Assembly: GCA_022509105.1 (NCBI GenBank)
Contig: JAFLTV010000007.1
Coordinates: 1-64,000 of the forward strand
Direction: 5' to 3'
DNA from: Muribaculaceae bacterium
GTDB lineage: Bacteria > Bacteroidota > Bacteroidia > Bacteroidales > Muribaculaceae
DNA length: 64,000 bases
Shown here: positions 21,386 to 39,000 of the stretch, piece by piece
Position numbering within the stretch: the first letter of the stretch is position 1
Layout of the letters: every line of letters begins with the position of its first letter
Position numbers and translations under genes: made by a program
Notes under the pieces: generated by a model
What the model saw: the letters and a program-made list of their open reading frames with translations, nothing else
What the model was told of the DNA's origin: nothing
Databases searched by the model: none

Positions 21386-21403
21386 CAAGACAGTCAGACC
21401 CTT

Positions 21404-21448
21404 AAAAAATAGGATTTGTAATTTTAACGGATTACAAATCCTATTTTT
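21404..21448. terminator. Strong bidirectional terminator after the S9 peptidase gene
   Basis: Arms of about 18 bp (21404-21422 and 21431-21448; core ATAGGATTTGTAAT / ATTACAAATCCTAT) flanked by A-run and T-run, with an 8-nt loop. It also faces the end of the minus-strand accessory island. Confidence 0.9.
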
Positions 21449-21559
21449 AGACCTCTTCTCGCCTTCAGCGAACCTATCAAGCCAATACAGCCTCATTCAC
21501 CGGCTTCTAACTACAATGCCATGATTAACCTTCTATAAATGTTTATATAGTTTACATAT

Positions 21560-22174
21560 TCATTCTTTATTGACATTATAGCTTAAATGAATCATGGGTT
21601 CCCCACAAAAGTTATTAACACCGTCCTCTTTGAAACCCAATTCTTTATATAATTTATGGGCTTTAGTGTTATGAGGCTCTACTAATAAACCGAAAGGTTT
21701 GCCAATAGTTCTATATTTATAAATGGCAGATTTTATTAAGGAAGAGGCTACTCCCCTGTTTCTATATTCAGGTATAACAAATAAGGAATCGAGATATATT
21801 TCTTTGGAATTCGTTTCCGATTCCCAGTTATCGGCTTCTTCAACGGTTACATTCCAATCTAATAGTTCATTTGCTTTGGCAATGAAATCTTTTCTCATTT
21901 CCCTGAGTCCAGCTCCATCATAACCTATAATCGCTCCTATTCTATTATCATCATTATCTACTGCAACTAAGGCATTCTTATAACTGTATTGAGCTGTTTC
22001 TGTTGCTGCAAGATCTGTAAATAATTTCAAAACTTTTGGTAAATTTTCTTCACCGTCAGCCAATCCAACACAAAGTTCATGACCCATAGCTTCCGTTATG
22101 GTTTTACCGATAAATGGAGCATCTTCCTTTATTCCTTGTCTTATCACTATAGAACTTTTACTTAAATGAGTCAT
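21560..22174 (-). CDS. GNAT-family N-acetyltransferase
   Basis: A 204-aa acetyltransferase. The acetyl-CoA pyrophosphate-binding motif is visible as VIPEYRNRGVASSLI (R-N-R-G-V-A), preceded by the beta-4 strand EIYLDSLFV and followed by HNTKAHKLYKELGFKEDG. The acceptor is unknown. It is the last gene of the minus-strand accessory run, starting 9 nt after an exonuclease III fragment. Toxin-type GNATs are usually shorter and paired with an antitoxin gene, which is absent here. Confidence 0.88.
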   Translation of the reverse strand: MTHLSKSSIVIRQGIKEDAPFIGKTITEAMGHELCVGLADGEENLPKVLKLFTDLAATETAQYSYKNALVAVDNDDNRIGAIIGYDGAGLREMRKDFIAKANELLDWNVTVEEADNWESETNSKEIYLDSLFVIPEYRNRGVASSLIKSAIYKYRTIGKPFGLLVEPHNTKAHKLYKELGFKEDGVNNFCGEPMIHLSYNVNKE

Positions 22175-22183
22175 ATTTATATA

Positions 22184-22309
22184 CTATCGCCTTATTTTCG
22201 TCCTCACTTTCTGAAAGCAAATAACATCCGGAAGCAGTTCATCGGATAATCGTTTCACTGCCTCCAATCTTCCCTTAAGTCCATTCACATTCCAACTTAT
22301 AATCTTCAT
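22184..22309 (-). pseudogene. Truncated exonuclease III / AP endonuclease (N-terminal stump)
   Basis: A 41-codon frame starting MKIISWNVNGLKGRLEAV and continuing PDVICFQKVR. This is the classic N-terminus of the exodeoxyribonuclease III (endonuclease/exonuclease/phosphatase) family, in which SWNVNG carries the first metal-binding Asn and the next catalytic Glu normally follows at QE. Here the frame reads FQKVR and stops at TAG soon after; the remaining ~210 residues are missing. Both flanking genes lie 9 nt away, so the rest was deleted when the neighbourhood was assembled. Translation into a short peptide is possible, but it would have no active site. Confidence 0.75.
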
Positions 22310-22318
22310 GTCTTAATT

Positions 22319-23776
22319 TCAGTATTCATAAATCCAATCAAGAGAATCGTATGGGCACCATTTGCTAAATAGTGTTTCTATATAAATGATAATAGCAAAT
22401 GTTTCTTTTGAGTATTTATCGGCAAAGGCTTTCTTCTCTTTCGGAAGATTATTGTAAATCTCTTCAGCCGTTTTCATCCACTCGTTTAAATTATGGTTAC
22501 CCTCACAGAACATCATTTCACCATACCAGAATTTCTCATTTACAGTGTTTTTCAAATCTTCAGGACATTGCGTCTCTCCCGCATAATACCTGCAATACTT
22601 TAGAGCCTCCGGACCAACCTCCTGACCCGCAGTGTACGGGGAATATCTACTGTTGACATACCAAAATGTTTCCAGAGTTTGAAAGTAAGACTTCAACCAT
22701 TCTATCTCACCGAATTCACAGTCACTTTTTTGCAGGTCTGTTATCCTCCATGAGCTTGATTCAATTTGTTTGAGTTTAAATCTGAAGAATATATAATGCG
22801 ACCTGTAAAGATAAAACCATCCGTTGTCCAGATAAGTTCCGAATCTAAATTCCCAGCCTGTAGAATAAGACAACAAAAGTCTGCGTCGCAATTCTGAGTT
22901 TATCTTATAATTTTCGAATGGATTTTCTATCGGAGTCCATTTGTGTAGCTCTACATTTGTGAGGGCGTCGTTCTTAGGGAAGAAAATACGGCTTTTAAAT
23001 TCCTCTTCTCTAATTTTGAACATTAAATTCCTGTAAGTGTCTGGAAAATCTTTAGGAAATTCTATTTTCTTATAATTGCCTCCATACTTTTCTTTAATCA
23101 TGGAATAATAACTTCCATACATAGCCCCGGCAAAGGCACCCGTTAGGAAAGCTGCTAAATGTCTGTTACCAGTGCATTTCATTGCATTATGGATGGCCGA
23201 TGTGTAATCAAAACTATAATAGAAACATCTCCAGGCAAAGGTTATATATTCCATATAATCATTCCATTGATGTGGAGTTCCGGTCTTATACCAGTTAAAG
23301 ATACATTCCGGTAAATCTTTTATAGCCTCTTTCTTTGTGGCTCCCTCTCTTAATCTTCGGAGGATTATCATAATGTTTGTGGCATAATACTCTTGCTTAC
23401 CACCATTAAAGAAAGATTTCCAATTCAATTGTCTTTGTCTTTCTTCTGACAAAAATCCACTGTCAATAAGGGCAGAAGATATCATCGCTATCTTCAAGTC
23501 AAAAGGAATCGGCTTATCATATTCGTCACTTCCCCAAATTCTCCAATCTTCAGGAATATCACACCAAATTGCAGAATGTTTCAATGCTTTTCCAATAACA
23601 GGGTAAAGTCGATTCTTGTAAATTATACCTCCTTCATGAATCATGGGCCACATTTCCAAAGCCAAGACTCCATATCCTGATAGCTTGGCTTCAGGAGACA
23701 CTAATCTTTCCCAGAAACAATCCCTGTTATGTTCCCAGGTCCATGCGGCTAAATCGGCTATGACGGCTCCTAACAT
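22319..23776 (-). CDS. ADP-ribosylglycohydrolase-like protein, probably inactive
   Basis: A 485-aa protein. Two segments match the ADP-ribosylglycohydrolase (DraG/ARH) fold: the N-terminus MLGAVIADLAAWTWE, equivalent to GAxxGDxxGSxyE, and AIHNAMK...AAFLTGAFAGAMYG (about residues 195-221), equivalent to the second metal-binding helix. In active enzymes that helix begins with DTDT; here the position reads NRHL, and no TDDT motif is visible near residues 88-98. It may therefore be a pseudoenzyme that binds ADP-ribose, or a diverged enzyme. The C-terminal ~250 residues are not recognised. It starts 16 nt after the SIMPL gene in the same operon. Confidence 0.7.
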   Translation of the reverse strand: MLGAVIADLAAWTWEHNRDCFWERLVSPEAKLSGYGVLALEMWPMIHEGGIIYKNRLYPVIGKALKHSAIWCDIPEDWRIWGSDEYDKPIPFDLKIAMISSALIDSGFLSEERQRQLNWKSFFNGGKQEYYATNIMIILRRLREGATKKEAIKDLPECIFNWYKTGTPHQWNDYMEYITFAWRCFYYSFDYTSAIHNAMKCTGNRHLAAFLTGAFAGAMYGSYYSMIKEKYGGNYKKIEFPKDFPDTYRNLMFKIREEEFKSRIFFPKNDALTNVELHKWTPIENPFENYKINSELRRRLLLSYSTGWEFRFGTYLDNGWFYLYRSHYIFFRFKLKQIESSSWRITDLQKSDCEFGEIEWLKSYFQTLETFWYVNSRYSPYTAGQEVGPEALKYCRYYAGETQCPEDLKNTVNEKFWYGEMMFCEGNHNLNEWMKTAEEIYNNLPKEKKAFADKYSKETFAIIIYIETLFSKWCPYDSLDWIYEY

Positions 23777-23792
23777 TCTTTATCTATAATAT

Positions 23793-24455
23793 TTAATTCT
23801 TTACCAGTTCCCAAATTATATGAACGCCTTCCGTAATTTCTTCATCTTCTCCTGTCATTTCCAAAGGTGAACCACTCGGAAGTATTTCAACATTACAAGT
23901 GTCATACGCTTCATAATACCGGTGACTATCATCACAACCATAATTGATTTCAAGGATTGATCCCAATGAACAGTTAAGTGCATTTGCAAGAATTTCAGCT
24001 TTCTGCTTTGCATCTGCAACCGCCATCTCCATTACCTTAAGTTTATGTTCCCGTCTATTTGAAAGATAGGTGTCTAATTGGATCTCCACATACGGTACGG
24101 ATTCGGCAATTTCTTTACTCAATTCATTTGTGAGCTTGTTATCCATAGGAATGTCAATATAGACATATTGACGAAGATAGTATCCTTTTTTCTCATACCC
24201 GATATACCGGCCCTTCTCATCGAAGGCTCTTTTCTCATTTTCCGAGACATCAAAATAAGTAGTCTTTGCCAAATCCGGTCGTAGATTATGGTTTTTCAAG
24301 ACATTATTAATAAGAATAAGATTTTTCTTACCTGTTTCGTATGCTGCATCATTCGATTTGAAAGTTCTTCTGACTTCCAGTCTGATTCTGTGGGTATCCG
24401 GTGTAACATTCACTTTTGCTATGCCTGCAACTTTTATAATGTTTTTCTGATTCAT
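23793..24455 (-). CDS. SIMPL (DUF541) domain protein, cytoplasmic form
   Basis: A 220-aa protein that opens with IIKVAGIAKVNVTPDTHRI, the SIMPL/DUF541 signature (VxGxaxvxvxPD), and keeps the typical AVADAKQKAEILANAL helix near residue 145. Most bacterial SIMPL proteins (for example YggE) are periplasmic with a signal peptide; this one has none, so it should stay in the cytoplasm. The family's molecular function is poorly known. It lies 9 nt after the DUF6642 gene in the accessory operon, so it probably works with its neighbours. Confidence 0.85.
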   Translation of the reverse strand: MNQKNIIKVAGIAKVNVTPDTHRIRLEVRRTFKSNDAAYETGKKNLILINNVLKNHNLRPDLAKTTYFDVSENEKRAFDEKGRYIGYEKKGYYLRQYVYIDIPMDNKLTNELSKEIAESVPYVEIQLDTYLSNRREHKLKVMEMAVADAKQKAEILANALNCSLGSILEINYGCDDSHRYYEAYDTCNVEILPSGSPLEMTGEDEEITEGVHIIWELVKN

Positions 24456-24464
24456 AATACTATA

Positions 24465-25082
24465 TTAGATGACATCAAAACCTAATTCTTTAATTAAAGG
24501 AGCATACGTTTTCCAAAATATACATTTATTCTTATTTAATAAGATACCGACATTTTGAATATGCATTAGATAGTTAAATAAAGCAATATCTAAAATTGCA
24601 CTTTTAACGGCATTTACTGATTTAGTATAACCACAAATAACAGCTGCACCCGTATCTTCTTTAAATTTTTGGATAGCAACTTTATCTTTGAAGGTTTCAC
24701 AAGAGCTGAAATGAATAATCGCTTTTCCAAAAGAGCCATTTGCCATTGTTGCTAAATCACTCAAATTTAAATATTTGGCTTCTTCTTTCTTAATTTTGTC
24801 TTTTTCTTCACAGGTTTCTCCTTCCAAAATTATATTTCCAGGTAAACCATGCGTTGCGAAGTATATTATATCATACTTAATCATATATTTCTTTTTGGAG
24901 AAATACTCGATATAATACTCCAAATCTCGTTTTGTTAGAATAGTCTTGTGAATAATATCACAATCATAAAAATCTTTTAAGAATTGTAAAAGAGAGTTTG
25001 TTTGCAAATTAAAACGATTATCTCCATTATTATGAAGCCATTCCGTTTCGAAACATATAATGCCATGTTCTGGTTTTCCCAT
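24465..25082 (-). CDS. DUF6642 family, caspase-like putative cysteine protease
   Basis: A 205-aa protein that I recall as the DUF6642 family. Its pattern is that of a clan CD (caspase/CHAT-like) peptidase: a beta strand ending in FATHG (His78), and a second strand ending in HFSSCET (Cys128), giving the His/Cys dyad. ICFETEWLHN at the start and GAAVICGYTKSVNA after the Cys are also family features. It would be cytoplasmic. No gasdermin or other obvious substrate lies next to it. It is part of a minus-strand operon 19 nt after the HIRAN gene. Proteolytic activity is inferred. Confidence 0.72.
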   Translation of the reverse strand: MGKPEHGIICFETEWLHNNGDNRFNLQTNSLLQFLKDFYDCDIIHKTILTKRDLEYYIEYFSKKKYMIKYDIIYFATHGLPGNIILEGETCEEKDKIKKEEAKYLNLSDLATMANGSFGKAIIHFSSCETFKDKVAIQKFKEDTGAAVICGYTKSVNAVKSAILDIALFNYLMHIQNVGILLNKNKCIFWKTYAPLIKELGFDVI

Positions 25083-25101
25083 AATTATTCAATTTTATAT
25101 T

Positions 25102-26529
25102 TTATTTATTAGGATCATCTATTGATGAATCCATATCAATGTTGTTCCGTTTGATTGTCCTGAATAACTCTTTTTCAAATATTTCTTTAAAGCCATCTGA
25201 AACATCTTTGTTCAGATAGTATTCAGCATGATAATCCTTCAAGTCTTCACCATAAAGAAAATTATAGTCACTTTTCTTTATGTATATCGGTCCCATAATA
25301 TTCGTTAGTATATAAGGGCTGCAATTATCCTTATGATTTATTGCTTCTGATGTATATGCAGAACATTTATCTCCTTCGGCAACAATCATCATAAGAAAGA
25401 GTACTTCTTTATTCTCATTACGATGAACTATAACTATCTTTTCTCCGGTTATAGGGCTTATTCTTTCTAAATTATCGGCACATTGATAACCTCCGAATCG
25501 CATGTATGCATATCCCGTCTTATTTAATTGAACCATCATTTTCCTTAACTCATATTCATTTATTGAAACAGCTCTCAACCTGTCTGGTCGTACAAGCACT
25601 TTTTCATTAGTCTCAAGGAAAATAGTTATGCGGACCCGATCGTTGAGATTACCATGAGTTTTCAGTGTGGATATTTCTGCTGAAAATCTATTCCCATATC
25701 CTGCGTCAAGTAAAGTTGCTAATTCAGCATTTTCACTTCGAGGCACATAACCTATAATAAAATCAAAATCGAAGTCTTTCGGATCTCCATCGTAATCATC
25801 GGCAAGAGCAATGGCTACGGCATTCTTATCTTGCTTGTTGTCCTTATGACGGACAAGAGCCAATTTAGTTCCCACTTCAAGAGCATCCCAAAGTTCATCA
25901 TCATATTTTATATGAAAAGATACACCTGAAACGGCACATTCTTTGAAAAATACCTTCCTATATTGATAGAAATCTTCTGATTGCATCATAATTTGTTTTT
26001 CATCATCATTGCTTTGATACATCCCTTTAACAAAAGTAGGAATAGCAGGAATTTCTATTTCTTCTTCTGTCAATTTTTTTGTAACGGGTATTTTAATAAA
26101 TTCCTTTCCAACCATTATTGAATGATAAGGTATATCTACATATATCTCGGAATATTTTGGGAATTTACCTTCTTTTGCCTTCTCCACTAAATCATCAAAC
26201 CATCTTGCGTATTCTGGATCTTCTCCTTTACCTTTGTCAATAAAACATTTCAATTCTTCTTTGAATTCCTCAACCAATGATTTTACATCATTGCCGGTAG
26301 AAGGAATACCAAAGGAGTCAGCCCAAGTATCTTCTTTAATATTTTTGATACCGACACAATCTTCATTATATTGAAGATTATCTTCCGTCGTTATATGACA
26401 CCTGAGGAATAAACCATTGGGAGCCATATAGGAATACCACCGCAGTTTCTGATATCCTTGCTGATGCAATTCCTGCAAAAGCATCATTGCTTCCACAACT
26501 CCAATCTTATCATGAAGATTATTATCCAT
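25102..26529 (-). CDS. HIRAN-domain protein
   Basis: A 475-aa protein. Residues ~215-320 form a HIRAN domain: ALEVGTKLALVRHKDNKQDK, NAVAIAL, and IIGYVPRSENAELATLLDAG. HIRAN domains bind 3' DNA ends or stalled forks in helicases such as HLTF. No helicase is attached here. The N-terminal ~70 residues (LLQELHQQGYQKLRWYSYM, then LFLRCHI) look like a small domain I have seen in other uncharacterised bacterial proteins. The C-terminal ~150 residues are unrecognised. It starts 24 nt after the DUF6339 gene and may supply DNA-end sensing for the operon (inference). Confidence 0.75.
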   Translation of the reverse strand: MDNNLHDKIGVVEAMMLLQELHQQGYQKLRWYSYMAPNGLFLRCHITTEDNLQYNEDCVGIKNIKEDTWADSFGIPSTGNDVKSLVEEFKEELKCFIDKGKGEDPEYARWFDDLVEKAKEGKFPKYSEIYVDIPYHSIMVGKEFIKIPVTKKLTEEEIEIPAIPTFVKGMYQSNDDEKQIMMQSEDFYQYRKVFFKECAVSGVSFHIKYDDELWDALEVGTKLALVRHKDNKQDKNAVAIALADDYDGDPKDFDFDFIIGYVPRSENAELATLLDAGYGNRFSAEISTLKTHGNLNDRVRITIFLETNEKVLVRPDRLRAVSINEYELRKMMVQLNKTGYAYMRFGGYQCADNLERISPITGEKIVIVHRNENKEVLFLMMIVAEGDKCSAYTSEAINHKDNCSPYILTNIMGPIYIKKSDYNFLYGEDLKDYHAEYYLNKDVSDGFKEIFEKELFRTIKRNNIDMDSSIDDPNK

Positions 26530-26553
26530 AGATTCTTGGATTACAGGTAGAGA

Positions 26554-27318
26554 TTATATATCATCTTCATCATCCTCATCTTTAACTGTACTAGTAACTG
26601 TTAAAATTTGAGGCTTTATACGTGTCAGCTCTTCCTTGAAGAAATCACGGTTTAAGGTGCTTAATAGCCTAGTACCACCAAGTTTATTAAAATGTTTTGT
26701 AATAAATCTATTTTTAGCTTTGAACCATTGAGTTGTTACATCTGGATTCTCCATTAAGAAATCGAAATAACCAAAAATTGCTTCTTTATGTCTTGCTAAA
26801 GCATATTGAATAAAGTTGGTTCTAAATCCATGAGAACTAAAAAAAATCTTGGTATATTTATATTTATCGGTTCCATTATTATCAATGGTAAGAAAAACGT
26901 ACCACCATAATGATGCTAAAGCATGTGTTTTAATCCAGTCACTACCGTGGAACCAATGATTTATAACATAATTAACATTATTAAAATCCTTTTCTTTTAC
27001 TTTAGGGAAACGATTTTGAACATAATTGAACAAGTCTACATGAGTTAAATAAGTCCAAAATGATCTGTCAGAAGCTTGCAAAGGGGATAAATCTTTGTAG
27101 GCCTCATATAAGGCTACGGCAGATTCAAAATCTCCATGGGGTGTTGGAATCATCTTTTCTAATAACCCTTCTGGATGTCTTACGGTAGGAATAATTACAA
27201 CTTCTTCTGAGTCATATGGGAAGGAATCTTCTCCGTAATAATGAAGATTTAACCCATTCTTAACATTATCCGCGAGAGAATCGGCATAAGCTTTTTTAAA
27301 TGTTCTTTGTGCTATCAT
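26554..27318 (-). CDS. DUF6339 family protein
   Basis: A 254-aa protein recognised as DUF6339 by DRSFWTYLTHVDLFNYVQNR (about residues 83-102) and ASLWWYVFLT. It is helical and has no catalytic motif I can name. From memory, DUF6339 genes occur beside GHKL-ATPase and Z1-domain genes in defence-like loci, which fits this setting. Its ATG overlaps the preceding stop by 4 bp, so it is tightly coupled to the two genes upstream. It ends in an acidic DEDDEDD tail. Confidence 0.72.
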   Translation of the reverse strand: MIAQRTFKKAYADSLADNVKNGLNLHYYGEDSFPYDSEEVVIIPTVRHPEGLLEKMIPTPHGDFESAVALYEAYKDLSPLQASDRSFWTYLTHVDLFNYVQNRFPKVKEKDFNNVNYVINHWFHGSDWIKTHALASLWWYVFLTIDNNGTDKYKYTKIFFSSHGFRTNFIQYALARHKEAIFGYFDFLMENPDVTTQWFKAKNRFITKHFNKLGGTRLLSTLNRDFFKEELTRIKPQILTVTSTVKDEDDEDDI

Positions 27319-28178
27319 TCTTCTTCCTCCGGCTTAATAAGATTTTCTAATGATTCAAATAATCTCTTATATGGATCCATTAACAGAATCTGAGCCAGTT
27401 CCATTATTTCTCCTGGATCCTGATTAGTCAAGGTGTCGCTTTCTTTAAACTTTTCCAATGCTTGTTCCGTATCTATTCTGTATTGGAGAGTTCTTGCCCA
27501 TAGAGTATTCTTATTTTCCTCAATATATAGAAGAGCAGTAGTTAATGCATTATAAACTAAGGAAGAATGAATGATGTGGGCAAATTGTTTGTTCCCTTTA
27601 ATCGAACTTTTATATTTAGAATATAATTCCGGTGGCAATTTAATTTCAATTTTTTCTCCACCTAAAACATAACGAGGCATTTGATCAGTTTTTCCCTCAG
27701 TTATTTGCATAAAGGACCCGACTGATTTTAGTTTATCATATTTTATATCAACATCATAATATAACTCACCAAAGAAAGCAAGCAAATCTCCAGGCTCCAA
27801 ATCAAACGAGAACCCCATATAATCTTCATGCCATTGTTGATTAATATAACCCTTTATTGGTTCTCTTACCACAACTGATAATTGGAAAGAAACTCTTTCT
27901 GCCAAATGATTTTTTTCAATTGAAAATTTAAAATGAGGTTCAGTGGCAAATACACATTTTCTTAATAGAGTCCTTGGACATTCAATTTCACAAACATATT
28001 CTGCATAACCCTTCTTTATCAATCTATTGATATCAGAATTACGCATATCAATATCGAATTCAAAGGTATATTGGCTCCCTTTCTTTACCAGAGGTCTTGC
28101 ACTTATAGAAGGTAATGGAAGAACATCATCACCCATACCTAACACAGGATGAGGGAATGAGAGATTATATGTTTTCAT
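27315..28178 (-). CDS. Uncharacterised protein coupled to GHKL ATPase and DUF6339
   Basis: A 287-aa protein I cannot assign to a named family. It opens LSFPHPVLGMGDDVLPLP, a pattern I associate with proteins encoded next to GHKL-ATPase/DUF6339 genes. The N-terminal ~200 residues look beta-rich and the C-terminal ~80 residues helical, ending in an acidic PEEEE tail. Its start overlaps the ATPase gene by 14 bp and its end overlaps DUF6339 by 4 bp, so the three products are probably made in fixed ratio and may form a complex. Confidence 0.75.
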   Translation of the reverse strand: MKTYNLSFPHPVLGMGDDVLPLPSISARPLVKKGSQYTFEFDIDMRNSDINRLIKKGYAEYVCEIECPRTLLRKCVFATEPHFKFSIEKNHLAERVSFQLSVVVREPIKGYINQQWHEDYMGFSFDLEPGDLLAFFGELYYDVDIKYDKLKSVGSFMQITEGKTDQMPRYVLGGEKIEIKLPPELYSKYKSSIKGNKQFAHIIHSSLVYNALTTALLYIEENKNTLWARTLQYRIDTEQALEKFKESDTLTNQDPGEIMELAQILLMDPYKRLFESLENLIKPEEEE

Positions 28179-30150
28179 AAGCTTTCAATTTAATTGCATG
28201 ATGCATATTGTCTGCAAATAGAATTTTAATAGTATTTCTACCTTCTTCTAAAACTACATGTTTAATGATGTTACCTTCAATAGATCCATTATCGGTGGTT
28301 TCTAAATTTACAACATCATCAGATTGTTCTCCGCTGGTTATTAATTCCAATTCACCCTCTATTATATCATGAGGTGCATGGATTAAAAGATAATGATAAT
28401 GTTTGTCATTTTCTTTTTGAGCCATCACTCTGAATTCTACTGGAATATAAGTGCGGTATGTACCATCGGGATTTTGAATTTTTGTATTTATGAATTTATC
28501 GCCCGCTCGCGGTTTTCCACCTCGATTCCTGGCAGGACGCTTTGTTCTCTCCCTAAATCCGGCTAAATCTCCATCCTCATTGGTAGTATCTTCTTCATAA
28601 GAACCAGGCATCGTAATTTTAACAGAACCTATATTGGCACCATCATCATCTGACTTTTTAGAGACACCATCTTTATTTATATCAGTAGTTATAGAGGTGC
28701 CTATATCCTTAACATTTCCAGTAGGATTACCCAATGAATGATCAGATTCATCATTATCAGCAAGAAGATCTTCCGGTACATATAACAAATCTTCAAGACC
28801 GGTAATTTCTAATGCCGTTTCTTGACTATTAGAAAATAATTCTTCAAAGCATCTTTGTCTGAATTTATGTATCTCGTCTAAAGCTTGAACACCTTTTTCT
28901 TCAATTTTTCCTCTTGAATTTCTCCAGTTTGTTTGTTTCCACTCGTCATGAGCGGGATTTTCTAATTCTCTTAATATTTCATCACCTCTTTTGTTTTCAC
29001 ATACAAATAGACCAAATACACCATAACTTGTTTGTGTTCTTTTCCCATATACAAGCATAAGAGGTCGACGCATATATATCATTTTGTCTTTACTGCAATC
29101 AGCCTTTATAAGATAAATGGAACATTTTCCTAAAAGAGGTATTGACTCCCTGAAATGTCTGGCTTTTAAATTCCCAGATTCAGCTTCTTTCACAGCCCTA
29201 TAATATGCACGAGGATTAAGATACCCACTTTTTTGAGTATCATCGATATCATTATCAAAGTATTTCGACATATACTCATCAAGATTTTCTCGATTTATAA
29301 CGATCTCCCCAATAGTAACTTCTAATTTGTTTTGAAAAACTGCATACCAGAAACTCCGTAATACCTCTTTAATCATTTCTTTAATGGCTTCATCCTTATC
29401 TTCCATTCTGAAACCTAAAAGAAAGAAAGTTGTCCCTGGTTCAGTTCTACTGAATCTTGGAGGAATGTTCGATGGTTCATTTACAGGGTAACCACCGTTA
29501 TTATCATAATATCCAACAGAATTAACTTTAATCCCATTATACCTGTGAGTGCATAACCACGAAACACCTTCAAAATTGAATTCACCCTTGGGCGTCATGG
29601 TGGATACTATAATGGTAGAAATCGGAGAAAGTTGAAAGTATGCAGATTTACCAAATCCAAATGAACCACCTGATTCCTGATCACTCTTTGCACTTACTCC
29701 TGCAGACCTGGCAAAGGCATAAAAGGGTGAATCTGAAGAATTAGGATCATAATGCATCCCTTTTGTGTTATAATCAGAGATACGGATATATCCAATTCCT
29801 TTCTTTATACTTTGTCTTGAAAAACACTTCTCCATTTCCCAATATAATTCATTGGCCTTTGGAGTATTAAAATAGTTTCGGCATTCCTTAATATGTTTTT
29901 CTAATTCAAAGAAATTCTTGAAATTACTATCTGTTAGACTACTAAATGAAAATTCTACCTTAACTGGTTCATCATGATTATAAACAGCATCCAAAGAATT
30001 TTGTATCACTTCCCTTATAAGTGATTTATAAGGATTGGCCTTAAAATTCTGCATCATGGCATTATTAGGACCATCTTCTCTTCCTCCTTTTTGCTCTTCG
30101 AAGTGCCAACGGCAACCTCTCTCATTGGTTGTGGGATCGTATTCGGCCAT
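28165..30150 (-). CDS. GHKL-fold ATPase (MutL/Hsp90-type HATPase)
   Basis: A 661-aa protein with the Bergerat ATP-binding fold at its N-terminus. N box REVIQNSLDA (Glu47, Asn51); G1 box RISDYNTKG (Asp127, Gly131); G2 box GGSFGFGKSAYF (161-172) closing the ATP lid. A middle transducer-like region follows (to about 430), then a low-complexity linker (~460-560) and a C-terminal beta domain (VEFRVMAQKE onwards). Comparable ATPases occur in MutL-like/Z1-type antiphage loci such as Mza (from memory), but no Z1 or AIPR gene is present. It would be the ATP-driven switch of the accessory operon. Confidence 0.85.
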   Translation of the reverse strand: MAEYDPTTNERGCRWHFEEQKGGREDGPNNAMMQNFKANPYKSLIREVIQNSLDAVYNHDEPVKVEFSFSSLTDSNFKNFFELEKHIKECRNYFNTPKANELYWEMEKCFSRQSIKKGIGYIRISDYNTKGMHYDPNSSDSPFYAFARSAGVSAKSDQESGGSFGFGKSAYFQLSPISTIIVSTMTPKGEFNFEGVSWLCTHRYNGIKVNSVGYYDNNGGYPVNEPSNIPPRFSRTEPGTTFFLLGFRMEDKDEAIKEMIKEVLRSFWYAVFQNKLEVTIGEIVINRENLDEYMSKYFDNDIDDTQKSGYLNPRAYYRAVKEAESGNLKARHFRESIPLLGKCSIYLIKADCSKDKMIYMRRPLMLVYGKRTQTSYGVFGLFVCENKRGDEILRELENPAHDEWKQTNWRNSRGKIEEKGVQALDEIHKFRQRCFEELFSNSQETALEITGLEDLLYVPEDLLADNDESDHSLGNPTGNVKDIGTSITTDINKDGVSKKSDDDGANIGSVKITMPGSYEEDTTNEDGDLAGFRERTKRPARNRGGKPRAGDKFINTKIQNPDGTYRTYIPVEFRVMAQKENDKHYHYLLIHAPHDIIEGELELITSGEQSDDVVNLETTDNGSIEGNIIKHVVLEEGRNTIKILFADNMHHAIKLKAYENI

Positions 30151-30166
30151 AAACTGATATCTTTAT

Positions 30167-30334
30167 TTATTCTTTTTCTAATTCTATAAATGATTCTAAT
30201 TGAAATTTTATACTTTCAAAATCTTGGTTAAGATCAAGATTCTTATAATAAAGACGATTACCCTCAGATATAGTCACCATATCATCCGGTTGAATTTCTT
30301 CTTGGGTCTGCATGTCTTTATCTTTTTTTACCAT
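30167..30334 (-). CDS. Small 55-aa protein at the head of the GHKL operon
   Basis: An open frame of 56 codons starting ATG 30334 (MVKKDKDMQTQEEIQPDDM) and ending 16 nt before the ATPase start. The product is hydrophilic and acidic, with a likely C-terminal amphipathic helix (ESIKFQLESFIELEKE). The spacing, strand and coding-like composition match the genes downstream. I do not recognise the family. It could be an accessory or antitoxin-like subunit, but that is inference from size and position only. Confidence 0.6.
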   Translation of the reverse strand: MVKKDKDMQTQEEIQPDDMVTISEGNRLYYKNLDLNQDFESIKFQLESFIELEKE

Positions 30335-30369
30335 TGTTTACCAATTTTCAGATTTAATATATGAATTGT

Positions 30370-31437
30370 TTAAACGGATTGGGTTGCAAAGACATACCAG
30401 CTACCATCTCTATCGCTACGCTGTATATATCCTTTATCTACCATTGAAGATAACAATCTTTTGACAGCCCTTGGTACAATTCCAACTTTTTTGCTGATTT
30501 CATCAATGGTGATATCAGGGTGGGAATTGATTTCCTCTAAAACAGAGGGACCTGAGATGGATTTAAACTTAATCTTTTGTCCATCAAACCACCATACTTT
30601 TTCAGAAGTTTCTTTAGCGAAAGCTATGTCATATTTTAGTTCTTCTTCGACAAGACTCTTAAAATAGGTGATAAATTTACCGGCACTTCTCAGAGATGCG
30701 TTGGCTCCTTTAGAGGGTTGGGGACCTACTACAAGATCGGCTTGATGCAAGGCTTCTAAATATTTTGACTTATTACGGCTTCTCACTACAATCATTGGCC
30801 ACCCATGTCTTGCCAAAATATAATTAACCAACAATCTTGCAATTCTTCCATTACCGTCTTCAAAAGGATGAATCCGGATATAACGATAATGAAATAAAGC
30901 TGCCAATTCAACAGGATTATATTTCCCTGATTTTTCTGCCTCGTTATACCAATCTACTAAATCACTCATCAAAGCCGGAGTCTCTTCCGGTGATGCATAT
31001 TCAAATCGGTCGCCATAACGTGTGATGACACTGTTGGGACGGCTTTTATATTGTCCGGCATGTATTATATAACTTGTGGAGAAACCTCCCGGAAGATTCT
31101 TATACACAGTATAATCCTCCCTCAACAGGATTCTATGGAGTTCACGGATAAAATTTTGGGTCAATGGAATTTCCTTAATTTTAGCTTGCTCCTCCATAGC
31201 CTTCATTCCTAATTGGCTTGCCTTCATGTCGACAAAATCTTTGAGATCACCCTCTCCTATAACTTTTCCGAATAAAAGCAAAATTTCCGTTTGACCATAA
31301 GTCAAGGTATTTCCTTCTATATGGTTACTGTTGTAATTATAATCTACAGAAAAACGTTTGCTCATCAGAAATTGCTTCGTTTCAGACAAGGGCATTAGGC
31401 TTTTCCATTCTTCAAATAACAGTTCTAATTTTGCCAT
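30370..31437 (-). CDS. Fic/DOC family protein with C-terminal winged helix
   Basis: A 355-aa Fic protein, presumably an AMP transferase acting on a cytoplasmic target. The catalytic motif HPFEDGNGR (190-198) is intact. An N-terminal inhibitory motif SNHIEGN (about 37-43; S-x-x-x-E-G) marks the self-inhibited class II type. The C-terminal ~70 residues (TIDEISKKVGIVPRAVKRLLS) form a winged helix-turn-helix, so it may bind DNA and regulate its own operon. It lies between hsdR and the GHKL module; such Fic genes are common next to type I RM systems. Confidence 0.92.
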   Translation of the reverse strand: MAKLELLFEEWKSLMPLSETKQFLMSKRFSVDYNYNSNHIEGNTLTYGQTEILLLFGKVIGEGDLKDFVDMKASQLGMKAMEEQAKIKEIPLTQNFIRELHRILLREDYTVYKNLPGGFSTSYIIHAGQYKSRPNSVITRYGDRFEYASPEETPALMSDLVDWYNEAEKSGKYNPVELAALFHYRYIRIHPFEDGNGRIARLLVNYILARHGWPMIVVRSRNKSKYLEALHQADLVVGPQPSKGANASLRSAGKFITYFKSLVEEELKYDIAFAKETSEKVWWFDGQKIKFKSISGPSVLEEINSHPDITIDEISKKVGIVPRAVKRLLSSMVDKGYIQRSDRDGSWYVFATQSV

Positions 31438-31444
31438 ATTTTTG

Positions 31445-31478
31445 CAAAATGGAATAAATAAATGTTCACTTAGTGAGC
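31445..31478 (-). promoter_or_regulatory. Possible promoter and palindromic operator of the fic gene
   Basis: On the minus strand, CCATTTTG (31445-31452) is one base off TAnnTTTG and ends 8 nt before the fic start. Upstream, between the -7 and expected -33 positions, is the palindrome GTTCACTTAGTGAGC (31464-31478; TCACT-T-AGTGA core). A repressor, perhaps the Fic winged helix, could bind there. Confidence 0.35.
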
Positions 31479-31592
31479 TAATTTAATGGTAATTTTACAT
31501 ATCTCAAAATTCTTCTCCATTAATATTCTTAATATTAAATTAAGCTTGCCCATGGTTGTTGTACAGATAAACATTTCATATTTTAATGGTTT

Positions 31593-34500
31593 TTAGGCTA
31601 CTGAAATTGATTCATGGATATGGGTTACGAACTCTGCAACTTTCGGAAATTTACCTCCAAATATCTGTATGGGATCAAATTCTGTGAAAGGAGATTTTAT
31701 TAACTGCTTCTTTTCTATATCGCCGTTCTGGCACACATAATCCAATATGCTTTTCAGATATTCTTCTTGTTCCGATGTTAGTGTATTAGTTTGTATAAAT
31801 TCTGTGAAGAGTTCCAATGCTCTTTGACGGTCTATACCGTTTAAAGTCCTGATAAACCCTGCAACGTTCAAACCTTCATTAAGGTTCTCTCTTTGAAGAT
31901 ACCTGTCATAATCCTCTTTGCTTCCGAGTTCATTCCAAAGAATCCTCTCCAGTTCATTGATATCCTCTTCCGATAACTTTTCTATATTCTGTATCTTTTG
32001 TAACACCGGTAGGTCCCTGTTCTCGGCAAGGAATTCAAGAACTTTCTGACGGTAGGTTACATCAGTTATCACAGTTGTAATGGTTTCTCCCTCGGATATA
32101 TTATCCTTGATATTGACTGTGAAGGTTACATCCGGGTCTCCTGTGAGATGTTTGATAAGATCCCGCAGCTCTATTCTAACCCTTTCAAGTGAAGACAGAG
32201 ACTTATTGTCCCAGAACTCCTTGGTCAAAACTTCTTTAATCACAGGCATTTTTGCTATCACATCCGGCACAGAAGCCAATTTCTGCAGAGCATGGGCAAT
32301 TACTGTTATCTTCCCTTCGTAAAAGGCTGACTCAAATTCCGGATTTATCAATCCGAGCTGAGAATAAAGCACCAACAAATCGAACTTCAGTGCCGTCTCA
32401 TCCTCTCCCGGCATAGCTACCAGGGGTGCGATATCATTCTTTAGTGTCAGTACATCAACTGCAGACAGATATTGCCATGCCTCCGGTTTCCTGAATCGAC
32501 TGACACCAGACCATTTATCTCTTACTGCGATATGATGGTCATTGAGCCGTCTTACCTGATCCAATAATGTGGATTTCAACTCATCATGAAAACTCTTTGC
32601 AAACTCATCTTCCTGATATTTTGCCGTCTGTAAGGAGGCAGCTATATCAGCTCTTGCACCGAATATTCTTTCGGAAAGCGACTGAACTTTTCCTGACTTT
32701 GGTTGCGGTATTCCCGGATTAAAGAAATCGAAATTACCCAACCAATCAAAAATCATAAATTTTTTCTTGTCTTCTCCCGGTCCGAATATATCGGGACTAA
32801 GTCTTGTGCCGCGTCCCTTCATCTGCATGAACTTGATCTTTGAACGAACTCGCTTGAAATAGACAAGATTCAATACATCCGGCACATCTATTCCGGTATC
32901 GAGCATATCCACAGACACGGCTATCTGTGGGAACTTATCCCTTACTCCGAATTTATCTATAAAGTCTTGGGCATATTTCACCGAATAGTCAATCCTCACA
33001 CAGAATTCCGGACCCCACTGAGGATATAGATAATTGAACCTCTCCACAATCAATTGGGCGTGTTCCTTGTTATAAGCAAAGATTATAGTTTTGCCTATCA
33101 TCTCTCCGCTATGTATTTTCAAGCCCTTATCCATCAGTTCCTGAAGAACCTTGTCTATCGTGTCTATATTGAAAATATAATTGTAAATCTCTTTTTTCAA
33201 TATATCCCTTGGAGCGGGATCAATAGAATTGATTGCACCTTCATACTCCCAGACTTTCTCCAATTCTTCTTTCTCGCTCTCGTTCAAATCATCATATTTG
33301 ATGCCCTCTTCCAACACGGCAGATTTATAGGACTTCCCCTCAGCGGGCACAAGGTAACCGTCTTCAACCGCTTCCCTTTCTTCGTAAGCATAATTCGGAA
33401 TCCCTTCCTCGAGTCCTAATAATTCGTATGTGCTTCTTTCTACTTCTTCCCTCGGAGTGGCTGTGAGTCCTACAAGCAGTGAATCGAAATATTTGAAAAT
33501 GGCACCGAATTTACCGAATACCGATCGGTGAGCCTCGTCTATTATGATAAGATCAAACCTCCCGATAGAGAATGTTTTTACATCAGTCTCGATATGGTTG
33601 ATCATCGTCTGATAAGTTGAAAACATTATCCGGGCATTCATGTCCGGGTTATTATCACGGTCAGATAGAACCGTAGTGGTCATTTCCGGCAATAGTTTGG
33701 CGAATACCTTGTGAGCCTGGTTCACCAAAGAATTCCTGTCGGCAAGAAAGAGGGTGTTCTTCACCCAGTCAGCTCTTGTGAGCACATCTACAAGAGATAT
33801 TGCGGTACGAGTCTTCCCTGTACCTGTGGCCATCACCAACAGACCTCTTCGATATTTCTTGTTGAAGTGTTCGCACAATGCCTTGATTCCGGAGAGCTGG
33901 TAGTGTCTTCCCGCGATATTGGGATTACCGGCCATGTCGGTAATATCTTTTCGCCCTCTGCGTTTCAGGATTCGTTCCAAGTCTTCTATTGAATGGAAAC
34001 CGTAAAGTCTTCTCGGAGGATAACCTAAACCGTCTATCACCCAAAGTTCATATCCGTTAGTGTAATATATCACCGGTTTCACGCCATATTCCTTTTCAAG
34101 GGCTTCGGCATAAAGTTCAGCCTGATGTTTGCCCTGGTTGGGATCCACACTTGTTCTTTTGGCTTCAATCACAGCCAATGGACGGCTGTCACGGCCAAAC
34201 AAAACATAGTCTGCATACCCGACACCGGATTTTGTGGGCAACCCCTTTACTTCAATTTCCTTGCAAGCCTTTCCGGGTTGTTTGTCACCGTTATCTTCCA
34301 GGATATCCCATCCGGCTTCCCGGAGCATCATGTCGATATAGAGTCTTCTTGTTTCGGCTTCTGAAATTGCATCCCAGGATAATTTTTCATAGATTTCATC
34401 CGATGATATATTTTCAGCAGATTCTATCTTTTGCGGTTCAACAGTTTCTACAAATTCTTCCACTGTTTCATTTTCCACCGGAGAAGTAGGAATAGAAGCA

Positions 34501-34931
34501 GAAGATGTTGGGATAAGTTCTTTGTTAAATGGAGCAAGTGTTTTTAATATTTGGAGTCTAAGTAAAACAGCACCAATGAAATTATATAGATTCAATAAGG
34601 AAAAGAACGATTCTTTCTTTGTTACCTTCTGACCGTCATGGGCTGCAGAGTTACCGACTTTACGGATGTAATGCACGGCCATCATGATCCGGTCGTCATT
34701 GTCAAAGAAATCTCTGAATGTGTCATTGTCAACTATCTGAAAAAGAGTCCATCTTTCTCCGGTTTCTTCTCCTTTCATTTGATAGATTGCACGGGCCATC
34801 CATTCCAAAGCTCTTCGGGCGTTGATGGCTGAAATTTCCGGATCATCAATCTGATGTTTTTCAGCGTTGTCACAATAACGATAAAGAGTGGATAACTCCG
34901 GTATATCTTTTAAATAATCAAAGTTCAACAT
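31593..34931 (-). CDS. hsdR: Type I restriction endonuclease subunit R (HsdR)
   Basis: A 1112-aa translocating restriction subunit. Residues ~1-130 resemble DUF4145 (AINARRALEWMARAIYQM, VGNSAAHDG). Next is the PD-(D/E)XK nuclease (DYVLFG...AVIEAKRT, about 240-258), then the SF2 motor with MATGTGKTRT (about 367-376), IIDEAHRS (about 462) and GLTATPREE. Motif VI-like QMKGRGTRLSPD and an EcoEI-type C-terminal domain follow. It cleaves unmodified DNA after ATP-driven translocation, in complex with HsdM and HsdS. It starts 11 nt after hsdS. All key motifs look intact. Confidence 0.95.
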   Translation of the reverse strand: MLNFDYLKDIPELSTLYRYCDNAEKHQIDDPEISAINARRALEWMARAIYQMKGEETGERWTLFQIVDNDTFRDFFDNDDRIMMAVHYIRKVGNSAAHDGQKVTKKESFFSLLNLYNFIGAVLLRLQILKTLAPFNKELIPTSSASIPTSPVENETVEEFVETVEPQKIESAENISSDEIYEKLSWDAISEAETRRLYIDMMLREAGWDILEDNGDKQPGKACKEIEVKGLPTKSGVGYADYVLFGRDSRPLAVIEAKRTSVDPNQGKHQAELYAEALEKEYGVKPVIYYTNGYELWVIDGLGYPPRRLYGFHSIEDLERILKRRGRKDITDMAGNPNIAGRHYQLSGIKALCEHFNKKYRRGLLVMATGTGKTRTAISLVDVLTRADWVKNTLFLADRNSLVNQAHKVFAKLLPEMTTTVLSDRDNNPDMNARIMFSTYQTMINHIETDVKTFSIGRFDLIIIDEAHRSVFGKFGAIFKYFDSLLVGLTATPREEVERSTYELLGLEEGIPNYAYEEREAVEDGYLVPAEGKSYKSAVLEEGIKYDDLNESEKEELEKVWEYEGAINSIDPAPRDILKKEIYNYIFNIDTIDKVLQELMDKGLKIHSGEMIGKTIIFAYNKEHAQLIVERFNYLYPQWGPEFCVRIDYSVKYAQDFIDKFGVRDKFPQIAVSVDMLDTGIDVPDVLNLVYFKRVRSKIKFMQMKGRGTRLSPDIFGPGEDKKKFMIFDWLGNFDFFNPGIPQPKSGKVQSLSERIFGARADIAASLQTAKYQEDEFAKSFHDELKSTLLDQVRRLNDHHIAVRDKWSGVSRFRKPEAWQYLSAVDVLTLKNDIAPLVAMPGEDETALKFDLLVLYSQLGLINPEFESAFYEGKITVIAHALQKLASVPDVIAKMPVIKEVLTKEFWDNKSLSSLERVRIELRDLIKHLTGDPDVTFTVNIKDNISEGETITTVITDVTYRQKVLEFLAENRDLPVLQKIQNIEKLSEEDINELERILWNELGSKEDYDRYLQRENLNEGLNVAGFIRTLNGIDRQRALELFTEFIQTNTLTSEQEEYLKSILDYVCQNGDIEKKQLIKSPFTEFDPIQIFGGKFPKVAEFVTHIHESISVA

Positions 34932-34942
34932 GGTAAAATTTT

Positions 34943-36145
34943 TTAATTGAACCAGTAATCCATTCTGGAAGCAAGAAGAGTTTCCAATTCCTTTATTGAA
35001 TTCTCAATATCCTTCTTCTGCTCCTCAATAATCTCTATTCGTGAAGCAAATTCATTTTGCAAAGAAATTGGTGGCAAAAAAATAGGTATTTTGCTGATAT
35101 CTGAAGGTTTTATTTCAACAACTTTGGATCCGTGTGCATATCTTTCTTTATCAAGATTAAAGGCTTTAGTTCTCATGTAATAAGTTATAAATATAGCATT
35201 CTGTTTATGAGAAAAAATTGCTGCATGACTACCAACTGCCACATCATAATTCCCTAACCAGGCTATACTTTTACATGAACCATCCAAATCTTCACTCGTA
35301 ATTGCTATTATCACATCATTGAATTTTGCAAATTTTGATTTTTTTGCTATTTCTGAAGAAATGAATGTCAAGTTACCTTTAACTACAAGTCCAAATTTCA
35401 TATGGATTTGACCATAATGAATACAAGGTACTCCGTCCGATATAAAATCTGATTTCAAAAAACCTCCTCCTCTTTGGAATTCCCCAATTACACCAAATTT
35501 CTTTACTTCCCAGCCTTTTGGATTGGTGATTGGGTCACCAAACATTTCATAAAAGATAGATTGAGCCAAATGATCTAATAATTTAATCTGCTCCTTCCTC
35601 CCTTCTATCATTCCATTTATCTCATCCAACTCTGAAACAATCCTTTCTTGAACTTCTTTTGGGGGTATCGGAAGTTCTAATTTTTTTAGGTTGGTTTTAT
35701 TAAATTTAGATTGAGCTACTTGAGAAATAATCTTAAATAATTGTGATTGAAAATAATTTCCTTTTAAAGCATAAGAAAAAAATTTATGATTTCTTTTATT
35801 TGATTTGATTAAGATAGCATTTGGTCCCAAAACATTGTTTTGATATTTTAGCATTGATGGATGCAAATAATAAATTTCTCCACAGTTTCCTATATTAGGA
35901 AGAATAATACATTCTTGATTTAAATTAACTCTCCATAAATAATTGAAGGCAGACTCATTTACATATACGAAGTTAGAATTTTTAAAATTATTTTTTAGGT
36001 CTGTAGTACGTATTAACTGTGCAAAATCTTTTTCATCCATGTATTTTACATTATCTCTCAAATCTGCAAATGAACCTGCAGCCACGAAATCAGTAACAGT
36101 TTCAAATACTTCTCCTAATTTTTTATATTCCCAATTATGCTTCAT
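34943..36145 (-). CDS. hsdS: Type I restriction specificity subunit (HsdS)
   Basis: A 400-aa DNA-recognition subunit with two target-recognition domains. The first begins WEYKKLGEVFETVTDF, the second PKGWEVKKFGVIGEFQRGGG; each is followed by a conserved helical spacer (PIPPKEVQERIVSELDEING and LPPISLQNEFASRIEIIEEQ). It determines the bipartite methylation and cleavage site; the site itself cannot be read. There is a single hsdS, with no silent copies, inverted repeats or recombinase nearby, so shuffling is not suggested. It overlaps the DUF1016 gene by 11 bp. Confidence 0.93.
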   Translation of the reverse strand: MKHNWEYKKLGEVFETVTDFVAAGSFADLRDNVKYMDEKDFAQLIRTTDLKNNFKNSNFVYVNESAFNYLWRVNLNQECIILPNIGNCGEIYYLHPSMLKYQNNVLGPNAILIKSNKRNHKFFSYALKGNYFQSQLFKIISQVAQSKFNKTNLKKLELPIPPKEVQERIVSELDEINGMIEGRKEQIKLLDHLAQSIFYEMFGDPITNPKGWEVKKFGVIGEFQRGGGFLKSDFISDGVPCIHYGQIHMKFGLVVKGNLTFISSEIAKKSKFAKFNDVIIAITSEDLDGSCKSIAWLGNYDVAVGSHAAIFSHKQNAIFITYYMRTKAFNLDKERYAHGSKVVEIKPSDISKIPIFLPPISLQNEFASRIEIIEEQKKDIENSIKELETLLASRMDYWFN

Positions 36146-37190
36146 CTTCTCCCTCCTTTCCCTTTTTCATAAAGAATAATCTCTTTTGCAGCTCTATCTC
36201 TCTTCTTAGTTCTTCTTCGGAAGGCAAATGAGTAAGATACTTTGATGCATACAACTGTGTATTGCCATTTAAAACTGAATATTTGGCAATATCCTCACTT
36301 GTTTCAGCACATAATATTATCCCTATAGTAGGGTTATCTCCCTCAGTCCTTTTCAACTCATCATACATCCTGACATACATATCCATTTGACCTACATCTT
36401 GATGTGTTATTTTATTTGTCTTCAGATCAATCAGATAGAAGTTCTTCGTCAGATAATTATAAAACACCAAATCAATGAAATAATCACCTGCGTCAGTTAC
36501 AATATGTTGTTGTCGTTCTACAAAAGCAAAACCCTTCCCCAGTTCCATTATGAATTGCTGAAGATGATTTATAAGGGCACTCTCAAGCTTGCTTTCCGTG
36601 TAACCGGTATCTTGTGGTAAACCTAAGAATTCTGTTATATATGGCGATTTGATATATTCCTCCGGATTAACATACTTAAATTCCTCAGATGAAGTCAGGG
36701 TCTTCATTTCGTCTTCCACCTTTTTAGGGTGAGCCGAACTTAAAAGACGATGATAATATTTAGACCCTACATTCCTCTCAAGAGTTTTCACCGACCACAT
36801 CTGATTTGCCGTTTCATTTATATACCACCACCGTGCATCCTCATTTTCTTCCCCTAAAATCATCTTTATATGTGACCATGTCAGATTTTGCACACGCGTG
36901 TGCAAAATCTCCCAATCAGGGAAATAAATATAAAGTTGTCGATAATAAGCTAGGCTTCTTGGATTATATCCTTTCCCTAATTCCAAAGTAAGTTCTTTGG
37001 AAAGAGTCGGTATTAGTTTTGCACCATATTCAGCTCTTAATTCACCCTTCTGGTCTTCCTCCACTATTCTCCGGCCAATTTCCCACCTTTCATGGATAAT
37101 CGTAGAATTAAGTGCTACCGCTGCCTCAGCACGATATTTTCGCACTATTTCTCGTATGTCGTTTATGAACTTTTGAAGATTATGCTTCAT
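36135..37190 (-). CDS. DUF1016 (YhcG-type) PD-(D/E)XK nuclease-like protein
   Basis: A 351-aa protein of the DUF1016 family. The N-terminal ~160 residues (HERWEIGRRIVEEDQ; YNPRSLAYYRQLYIYFPDWE; LTWSHIKMIL) form the helical DUF1016_N region. The C-terminal part holds a PD-(D/E)XK core, with FIDLVFYN and FYLIDLKTNKITHQDVGQM. It is encoded between hsdM and hsdS with 11-bp overlaps on both sides, so it is translated with the RM subunits. Such proteins often accompany type I systems, possibly as an extra nuclease or a regulator. Role inferred. Confidence 0.9.
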   Translation of the reverse strand: MKHNLQKFINDIREIVRKYRAEAAVALNSTIIHERWEIGRRIVEEDQKGELRAEYGAKLIPTLSKELTLELGKGYNPRSLAYYRQLYIYFPDWEILHTRVQNLTWSHIKMILGEENEDARWWYINETANQMWSVKTLERNVGSKYYHRLLSSAHPKKVEDEMKTLTSSEEFKYVNPEEYIKSPYITEFLGLPQDTGYTESKLESALINHLQQFIMELGKGFAFVERQQHIVTDAGDYFIDLVFYNYLTKNFYLIDLKTNKITHQDVGQMDMYVRMYDELKRTEGDNPTIGIILCAETSEDIAKYSVLNGNTQLYASKYLTHLPSEEELRREIELQKRLFFMKKGKEGEDEA

Positions 37191-38697: not shown

Positions 38698-38781
38698 TTT
38701 CTATGATTGGGTTATAAGAGTCTCTTAATTTCTTTATAAATTATCAAACTTATATCAATAAATTAAGAATTAAGCTAATTA

Positions 38782-38789
38782 CAAATTTA
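38782..38789 (-). promoter_or_regulatory. -7 box for the hsdM operon
   Basis: TAAATTTG on the minus strand, a full match to TAnnTTTG. A TTTG at the -33 position is not seen. It would give a leader of roughly 80 nt. Confidence 0.45.
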
Positions 38790-38833
38790 AAGATTTTTTT
38801 GATAGGTTTAGATAGTTTGAGCCTTTACTTTTA

Positions 38834-38920
38834 ATGTGTAGGCGGAAAACAGAGGTGCTTGAAAATGGTGGAAGCCTTAGCCATGAAGAGGCGGACAAAC
38901 AGAAAGATACCTATTTATAG
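38834..38920 (+). CDS. Possible 28-aa small ORF or gene remnant
   Basis: ATG to TAG frame encoding MCRRKTEVLENGGSLSHEEA and eight more residues, ending KDTYL. The stop codon lies inside a hairpin with a T-run, as if a transcript ended there. It could be the C-terminal remnant of a lost gene, a leader peptide, or chance. No start signal or homologue is recognised. Confidence 0.25.
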   Translation: MCRRKTEVLENGGSLSHEEADKQKDTYL

Positions 38921-38928
38921 GTATTTTT
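38907..38928 (+). terminator. Weak hairpin with T-run upstream of feoB
   Basis: Arms ATACCTA / TAGGTAT with loop TTTA, followed by TTTT. It is short and AT-rich. It lies before the feoB promoter, so it would end a transcript coming from upstream. Confidence 0.35.
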
Positions 38929-38980: not shown

Positions 38981-39000
38981 TAGTGAAGGAAACTTTTTCT

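Follow-up and report, generated by a model that had tools for sequence, protein, structure and literature searches.

The Phage-Defence Candidate PDC-M33 in a Muribaculaceae Genome: Apparent Coupling to DNA-Methylating Restriction Systems and a Rare Set of Cargo Genes

Eight Genes at the Locus Include a Catalogued Triad

We analysed a stretch of 64,000 nucleotides from a Muribaculaceae bacterium (GenBank assembly GCA_022509105.1, contig JAFLTV010000007.1, positions 1 to 64,000; hereafter the window), in which an earlier prediction, made from the sequence alone, had described an eight-gene operon built around a GHKL ATPase. The eight open reading frames (ORFs) are indeed present between 22319 and 30334, all on the minus strand, and in transcription order they are spaced by 16, -14, -4, 24, 19, 9 and 16 nt. 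A gene for a 55-aa protein is followed by three genes, which we call the triad, encoding the GHKL protein (28165..30150), a 287-aa protein (27315..28178) and a DUF6339 protein (26554..27318). Behind these lie four further genes, the back four, for HIRAN, DUF6642, SIMPL and ADP-ribosylglycohydrolase-like (ARH-like) proteins.

The triad proteins match PDC-M33A, PDC-M33B and PDC-M33C of the PADLOC database (1.7e-99, 9.6e-49 and 6.5e-28, respectively; PADLOC-DB 2.0.0, models PDLC04582-04587), and their genes share the A-B-C order of that entry. By these matches the triad is an already catalogued phage-defence candidate, with candidate status only; such entries are worded "phage defence candidate (PDC)" in PMC11514479. 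The PADLOC entry carries no description, and we found no mention of PDC-M33 or DUF6339 in the open-licence PMC papers searched. Judged from gene neighbourhoods, what is new here is that PDC-M33 is systematically coupled to restriction systems that methylate DNA, that its partners are exchanged and that it has a slot for cargo.

The GHKL assignment of the first triad protein is supported by its sequence. Eight residues of the Bergerat motifs (E47, N51, D54, D126, G131, G162, G165 and G167, in the N-box, G1 and G2) are identical in all 26 relatives aligned, and hhalign comparison with 30 MutL/HATPase proteins gave E 1.3e-4 and a probability of 54% over 187 columns, against 0.1% in three control comparisons. 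This supports the assignment made in the original prediction, although a Pfam scan of the window protein matched no GHKL family.

The other two triad proteins are read as putative adaptors, because few positions in their alignments are invariant and no catalytic set was recognised. The structure model of the 287-aa protein (M33B) is a beta-sandwich (residues about 10-144) with a helical tail (pLDDT 90.9), and a search with it returned FN3-like matches only, a common arrangement. DUF6339, which matches its Pfam family at 1.3e-46, is modelled as mostly helical (pLDDT 92.7), with no informative match in the Protein Data Bank. M33B is uncommon: of 395 genomes from the phylum, 7 have it, a count that takes in the window's genome and two weak matches.

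The Triad Keeps Its Order While Its Neighbours Change

To place the triad in context, we assembled loci from a GHKL alignment scan of genome contigs, one genome per species (84,980 species), from which the best 80 of 138 relatives were taken. Together with plasmid, phage-record and genome loci and the window itself, this gave 89 GHKL-bearing loci, 67 of which hold the full triad (L044 and L085, in our locus numbering, are the same locus and are counted twice in every count of 67). At these 67 loci the genes adjoin in the order A-B-C, as in the window; the order script flagged L061 alone, where a second GHKL fragment accompanies an intact triad in order. The hosts include Bacteroidota, Balneolota, Chlorobiota, Chloroflexota, Bacillota, Actinomycetota and Pseudomonadota. 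Translational coupling of the GHKL and M33B genes is suggested by their overlap of 4-20 nt at 49 of 66 loci measured, although overlaps may be over-long because each ORF was started at its first ATG, GTG or TTG.

A 5-methylcytosine (5mC) methyltransferase gene lies in the fetched flank of 44 of the 67 triad loci, and in 38 of the 58 clusters that the loci form at 80% identity. The expectation for the 868 kb searched is about 0.26 genes, calculated from 154 PF00145 matches among 149 of the order's genomes and an assumed average genome size of 3.5 Mb. At 24 loci, near copies included, the 5mC gene stands within 400 bp. Nuclease genes beside the triad comprise Vsr (13 loci), HNH (9) and MutH-like (6) genes, and other loci have McrB-like (by eye; AAA_5) or DUF2357-PDDEXK_7 genes; the Pfam scans of neighbours covered hand-picked proteins. 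All 13 loci with Vsr fall among the 44 with a 5mC methyltransferase, and MutL works with Vsr and MutH (PMC2292703), as would be expected if the triad were a repair module, a MutL-like helper of Vsr limiting the 5mC deamination damage that the linked methyltransferase causes. We consider this very improbable, since the flanks of 31 of the 44 loci lack any Vsr-cluster gene, and the type I, Dam and Eco57I loci described next showed none either.

Several of the 23 loci without a 5mC enzyme carry another methylating or restriction gene. At L060, HsdM lies 16 bp behind the triad; at L106, a Dam enzyme overlaps DUF6339; and at L066, an Eco57I enzyme lies 0.7 kb upstream. Type I HsdM is present at L104 and in the window, HsdR at L058 and L079, and an N6/N4 enzyme at L110, 4.2 kb away on the other strand. 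L087 has a TaqI_C fragment at the contig end, and L052 an HsdS fragment just below the cut-off, plus a Fic gene. Because the window's genome (G000, 88.85% complete) contains no PF00145 match, the triad of the window appears to work without a 5mC enzyme.

These partners were mapped on a quick tree of 61 rows with several long branches, which leaves out four near copies (L044, L082, L083 and L090), the decayed L045 and L115, whose GHKL gene is split. Clustering is evident for the 5mC label, with 12 changes against a shuffled mean of 18.1. The type I label needs four changes, at least three of them forced by starred branches. For both labels, gains and losses are indistinguishable. The window groups with L062, L065 and L067 (support 94, not starred), apart from L060, L052, L058 and L104. 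The position behind DUF6339 varies as well: a same-strand ORF of at least 100 aa starts within 100 bp at 35 of 67 loci, and the families differ.

Upstream of the triad, the window's 55-aa protein (30167..30334, minus strand) has a weak NCBIfam match to the McrC C-terminus (E 0.004). It has no phmmer relative among ORFs of at least 40 aa at other triad loci and may be locus-specific; by eye, a 37-aa ORF before the L044/L085 triad somewhat resembles it. It takes the place of a conserved protein family of about 77 aa (RFxKVAxxRV...NCSNRNNYEY) that stands just upstream of the GHKL gene at 29 of 67 triad loci (for example L081:9727-9960), and of which the single member scanned had no Pfam match above cut-off.

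L011 (MT837792), a 6.2 kb gut scaffold deposited as phage, is a compact minimal locus with an XRE gene (by eye), the triad, an HNH nuclease and a 5mC methyltransferase. L045:6872-10421 holds a decayed triad with broken GHKL and M33B frames and no restriction-modification (RM) genes recognised nearby.

The Four Genes behind the Triad Appear to Be Rare Local Cargo

The first of the back four encodes a 475-aa HIRAN protein (25102..26529, minus strand), whose domain at residues 202-305 matches Pfam HIRAN at 1.3e-10 (41.4 bits against a cut-off of 24.7) between unmatched flanking regions. The HIRAN domain binds DNA ends. DUF6642 (24465..25082, minus strand; 8.8e-12) follows, and then SIMPL (23793..24455, minus strand; 8.4e-21, 75.6 bits against 25.2), which by eye lacks a signal peptide. 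These three family assignments, like that of DUF6339, had been made before and score above the Pfam cut-offs. The last gene (22319..23776, minus strand) encodes an ARH-like protein with a CRYYxGE domain fused at its C-terminus.

The close packing of the eight genes and their presence in one inserted block would be expected if they formed one dedicated system, and broad members of two back-four families do occur at three other triad loci. L079 has a true ARH, itself a row of the search profile, 6.9 kb from the triad; L096 has an ARH member at 3.3 kb; and L056 has a SIMPL member at 1.4 kb on the opposite strand. However, none of the 66 other triad loci holds a phmmer relative (E < 1e-3) of the HIRAN, DUF6642, SIMPL or ARH-like protein. 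Even profile searches find SIMPL or ARH members only at those three loci, never two together, and no HIRAN or DUF6642 match. A search of 198 genomes from the order, with the window's among them, found HIRAN relatives in 11, SIMPL relatives in 4 (at E 1e-8 or lower) and ARH relatives also in 4; SIMPL and ARH relatives meet in the window's genome alone (DUF6642 was not searched there). The four cargo genes also occur apart, beside other defence genes, and the 55-aa gene is not shared. A dedicated eight-gene system thus seems very unlikely. The set recurs as a unit only as far as the triad, and the back four, by these searches, are rare local cargo found together only at the window locus. The proposed two-part division is partly borne out, although the front part is a candidate that PADLOC already lists and the back part is cargo of this locus.

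Elsewhere, pieces of the cargo tend to sit beside defence genes. HIRAN and SIMPL genes adjoin in two genomes of the order: in G397 (L149:8738-9777), where the pair is flanked by a WYL regulator and HsdM (Pfam), and in G540 (L157:1294-2285). On a Subdoligranulum plasmid (L160:5903-8651), the gene of a SIMPL protein without signal peptide directly follows a 5mC methyltransferase and Vsr (Pfam), and on a Vescimonas plasmid (L199:1724-5657), a 50%-identical SIMPL belongs to a gene run whose annotations include a DNA methylase and an O-acetyl-ADP-ribose deacetylase.

The caspase-like His/Cys dyad predicted for DUF6642 is present in the window (H78 and C128) but in few of the family members aligned. 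In an alignment of 17 of 31 available members, restricted to plus-strand ORFs, it was found in 3 (the others being L013 and L042) and was absent from 14. The CHAT match reached only E 0.25. Among 395 genomes searched in the phylum, 30 have a DUF6642 match, and 28 of these genomes belong to one taxonomic family (L014-L041); the 14 DUF6642 members aligned from it lack the dyad. The dyad-bearing relative at L013:7998-10026 has a 212-aa protein and an agmatine-deiminase-like protein (by eye) as neighbours, on a contig from a viral collection that also has integrase- and relaxase-like genes (by eye).

For the ARH-like protein the predicted similarity is there, below the Pfam cut-off (ADP_ribosyl_GH, E 0.0014, 18.8 bits against 26.2), and an active ADP-ribosylglycohydrolase was rejected. 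In the window protein, LSGYGVLALEM and GNRHLAA replace the metal-binding Asp motifs, which read T-D-D and G-(G/A)-D-(S/A)-D-T in L148 and L079. As both motifs are lost, removal of ADP-ribose is unlikely and the protein is probably a binding protein or scaffold. At L148, a true ARH gene is followed by the C-terminal CRYYxGE domain as an ORF of its own. At L147, an ARH-like gene that has lost the second Asp motif lies 12 bp behind a PDC-S02 gene, with stops reported where the C-terminal part would lie.

The Locus Belongs to a Larger Inserted Block

The original prediction had begun the cluster at 30334, with a type I RM system as its neighbour. That system was confirmed by Pfam on the same strand; the start was not, because the minus-strand genes continue upstream. 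In transcription order these encode HsdM, the type I N6-methyltransferase (37180..38697; Pfam N6_Mtase 4e-66, HsdM_N); a YhcG/DUF1016 PD-(D/E)XK nuclease (36135..37190; Pfam YhcG_C 5e-50, DUF1016_N); HsdS, the specificity subunit (34943..36145; two stretches matching Pfam Methylase_S); HsdR, the restriction/translocase subunit (31593..34931; Pfam ResIII and EcoEI_R_C, PADLOC REase_I 5e-159); and a Fic protein with a C-terminal winged helix (30370..31437; Pfam Fic 2e-21 and HTH_24, PADLOC SoFic 3e-33), whose HPFEDGNGR motif is intact by eye. The 55-aa gene, the triad and the back four follow, and then a GNAT acetyltransferase gene (21560..22174, minus strand; Pfam Acetyltransf_1). No minus-strand terminator-like site was found between the genes from HsdM to ARH.

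All of these genes form one block, a defence island (21386..38982), between a DPP-type peptidase gene and feoAB. In a same-genus genome, G863 (L209), the DPP and FeoAB orthologues are 133 bp apart, against 17.6 kb in the window, and this empty site makes DPP and FeoAB (21385-38983) the natural boundary of the cluster. We read the type I system and Fic as parts of the same acquired block, because they lie between genes that adjoin in G863. GC content is 32-36% over 24-31 kb, compared with 37-46% in stretches outside the block; no exact match of 11-14 nt joins its ends.

A palindrome before feoAB, GATACCTA...TAGGTATTT (about 38900-38930), is kept at both the occupied site and the empty one in L209, and is possibly a regulator site or terminator. 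Behind the ARH-like gene, at about 22200-22309 on the minus strand, some 36 codons resemble by eye the N-terminus of exonuclease III; this gene remnant may be a scar left where the cargo ends distally.

Discussion

We propose that the triad may be a MutL/paraMORC-like ATP clamp that licenses restriction, with variable effectors behind DUF6339, a reading that we think stands about an even chance of being right. The GHKL protein would dimerise or close on DNA upon ATP binding, M33B and DUF6339 would act as stoichiometric adaptors docking it to the restriction machinery, and the complex would load on invading, wrongly methylated DNA. There it would license or gate whichever nuclease the host operon supplies, here HsdR or YhcG, and the slot behind DUF6339 would take interchangeable effectors. 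In the window, HIRAN (by DNA-end sensing), the putative caspase-like DUF6642 protease, cytoplasmic SIMPL and the pseudo-ARH might, speculatively, make up a second and possibly suicidal tier. Such a mechanism would be in line with the DNA looping by MORCs and paraMORCs proposed for RM (Iyer 2008, PMC2292703) and with the report that VcSduA, a GHKL-bearing Shedu nuclease, restricts phage directly (PMC12137116). A more far-reaching form of the proposal, possible and in our view somewhat doubtful, makes the triad a general plug-in clamp for 5mC, type I N6-methyladenine, Dam and Eco57I systems with interchangeable nucleases and effectors, which here would link type I restriction with a second tier, armed with a protease and made up of HIRAN, caspase-like DUF6642, SIMPL and pseudo-ARH.

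Several points weigh against the clamp. Not one of 26 GHKL-protein members matches any HATPase Pfam family; strict regular expressions across the 67 triad loci recover the N-box at 39, G1 at 65 and G2 at 52, which counts against the GHKL assignment; and the hhalign support for it is moderate. The models of M33B and DUF6339 carry no functional information. The density control comes from one order and an assumed genome size, though the 67 loci span several phyla, and the cargo model is built from single gene neighbourhoods. The empty site is supported by G863 only, because in G883, another genome of the genus, different genes follow DPP, and the 19.9 kb fetched there contain no island and no FeoAB. 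At the flavobacterial locus L046:5158-10832, the triad is preceded by a reverse transcriptase (RVT_1) and, by eye, an XRE regulator; its DUF6339 has an extra C-terminal stretch, no methyltransferase was seen, and the L086 triad is closely related.

A further such point is that 17 of the 67 triad loci have in the fetched stretch neither a 5mC methyltransferase nor an N6/N4 methyltransferase, the latter counted by motif match in ORFs of 200 aa or more. Contig ends are nearby in L063, L068, L086 and L087 and not in the rest, and L045, L046, L052, L056, L064, L071, L078 and L094 have several kb of flank. These loci would suit a self-sufficient, perhaps abortive, defence system that merely accumulates in islands near RM systems. 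So would the change of partners on the tree, the PADLOC candidate's comprising the three genes alone, and the Shedu gene that follows the triad in L012. This alternative strikes us as unlikely, since the 5mC methyltransferase genes within 400 bp of the triad, some of them overlapping, the Dam gene overlapping DUF6339 and the HsdM gene 16 bp behind the triad are closer than shared islands alone would be expected to bring them.

For a restriction-licensing clamp, known systems offer partial parallels. Mza is a GHKL-containing multi-gene antiphage locus, in which it resembles the window; membership was ruled out by the Pfam scan of the eight genes, Fic and GNAT. GHKL ATPases beside restriction systems were described in 2008 (Iyer 2008, PMC2292703): like the triad, paraMORC and MORC ATPases are laterally mobile and lie in DNA-methylation RM operons with Vsr, HNH and helicase genes. 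This paraMORC trait fits the triad, given its 5mC methyltransferases and the N6 enzymes at other loci. MORC proper was rejected, as the S5-domain motif GhXhhpXXRhl was found at none of the 67 loci by regular expression; the triad also differs in the two dedicated partner proteins that follow the GHKL gene. In VcSduA, too, a GHKL domain is hypothesised to control a phage-acting nuclease, but that protein is a single fusion with its own nuclease (PMC12137116), whereas no nuclease was recognised in the triad. MutL-MutH and MutL-Vsr likewise pair an ATP-driven GHKL protein with separate methylation-linked nucleases (PMC2292703); MutL is a widespread repair protein, in contrast to the sporadic, RM-linked triad.

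Because the triad is already catalogued and the back four are a rare add-on, the window locus is a variant of known defence machinery, not a new kind of system. PDC-M33 nonetheless gains genomic context beyond its bare candidate label. A three-gene module whose order is fixed while its methyltransferase and nuclease change offers a clean genetic test of the role of GHKL proteins in restriction, and it may bear on how eukaryotic MORC proteins respond to DNA methylation.

Related RM-linked GHKL elements appear in PMC8011034 and PMC3710099. At L104:11400-14790, behind the triad and ahead of the type I RM genes, an N6 methyltransferase fused to a histidine-kinase-like ATPase is followed by a 325-aa response-regulator-like protein (by eye); these genes resemble the elements in PMC8011034.

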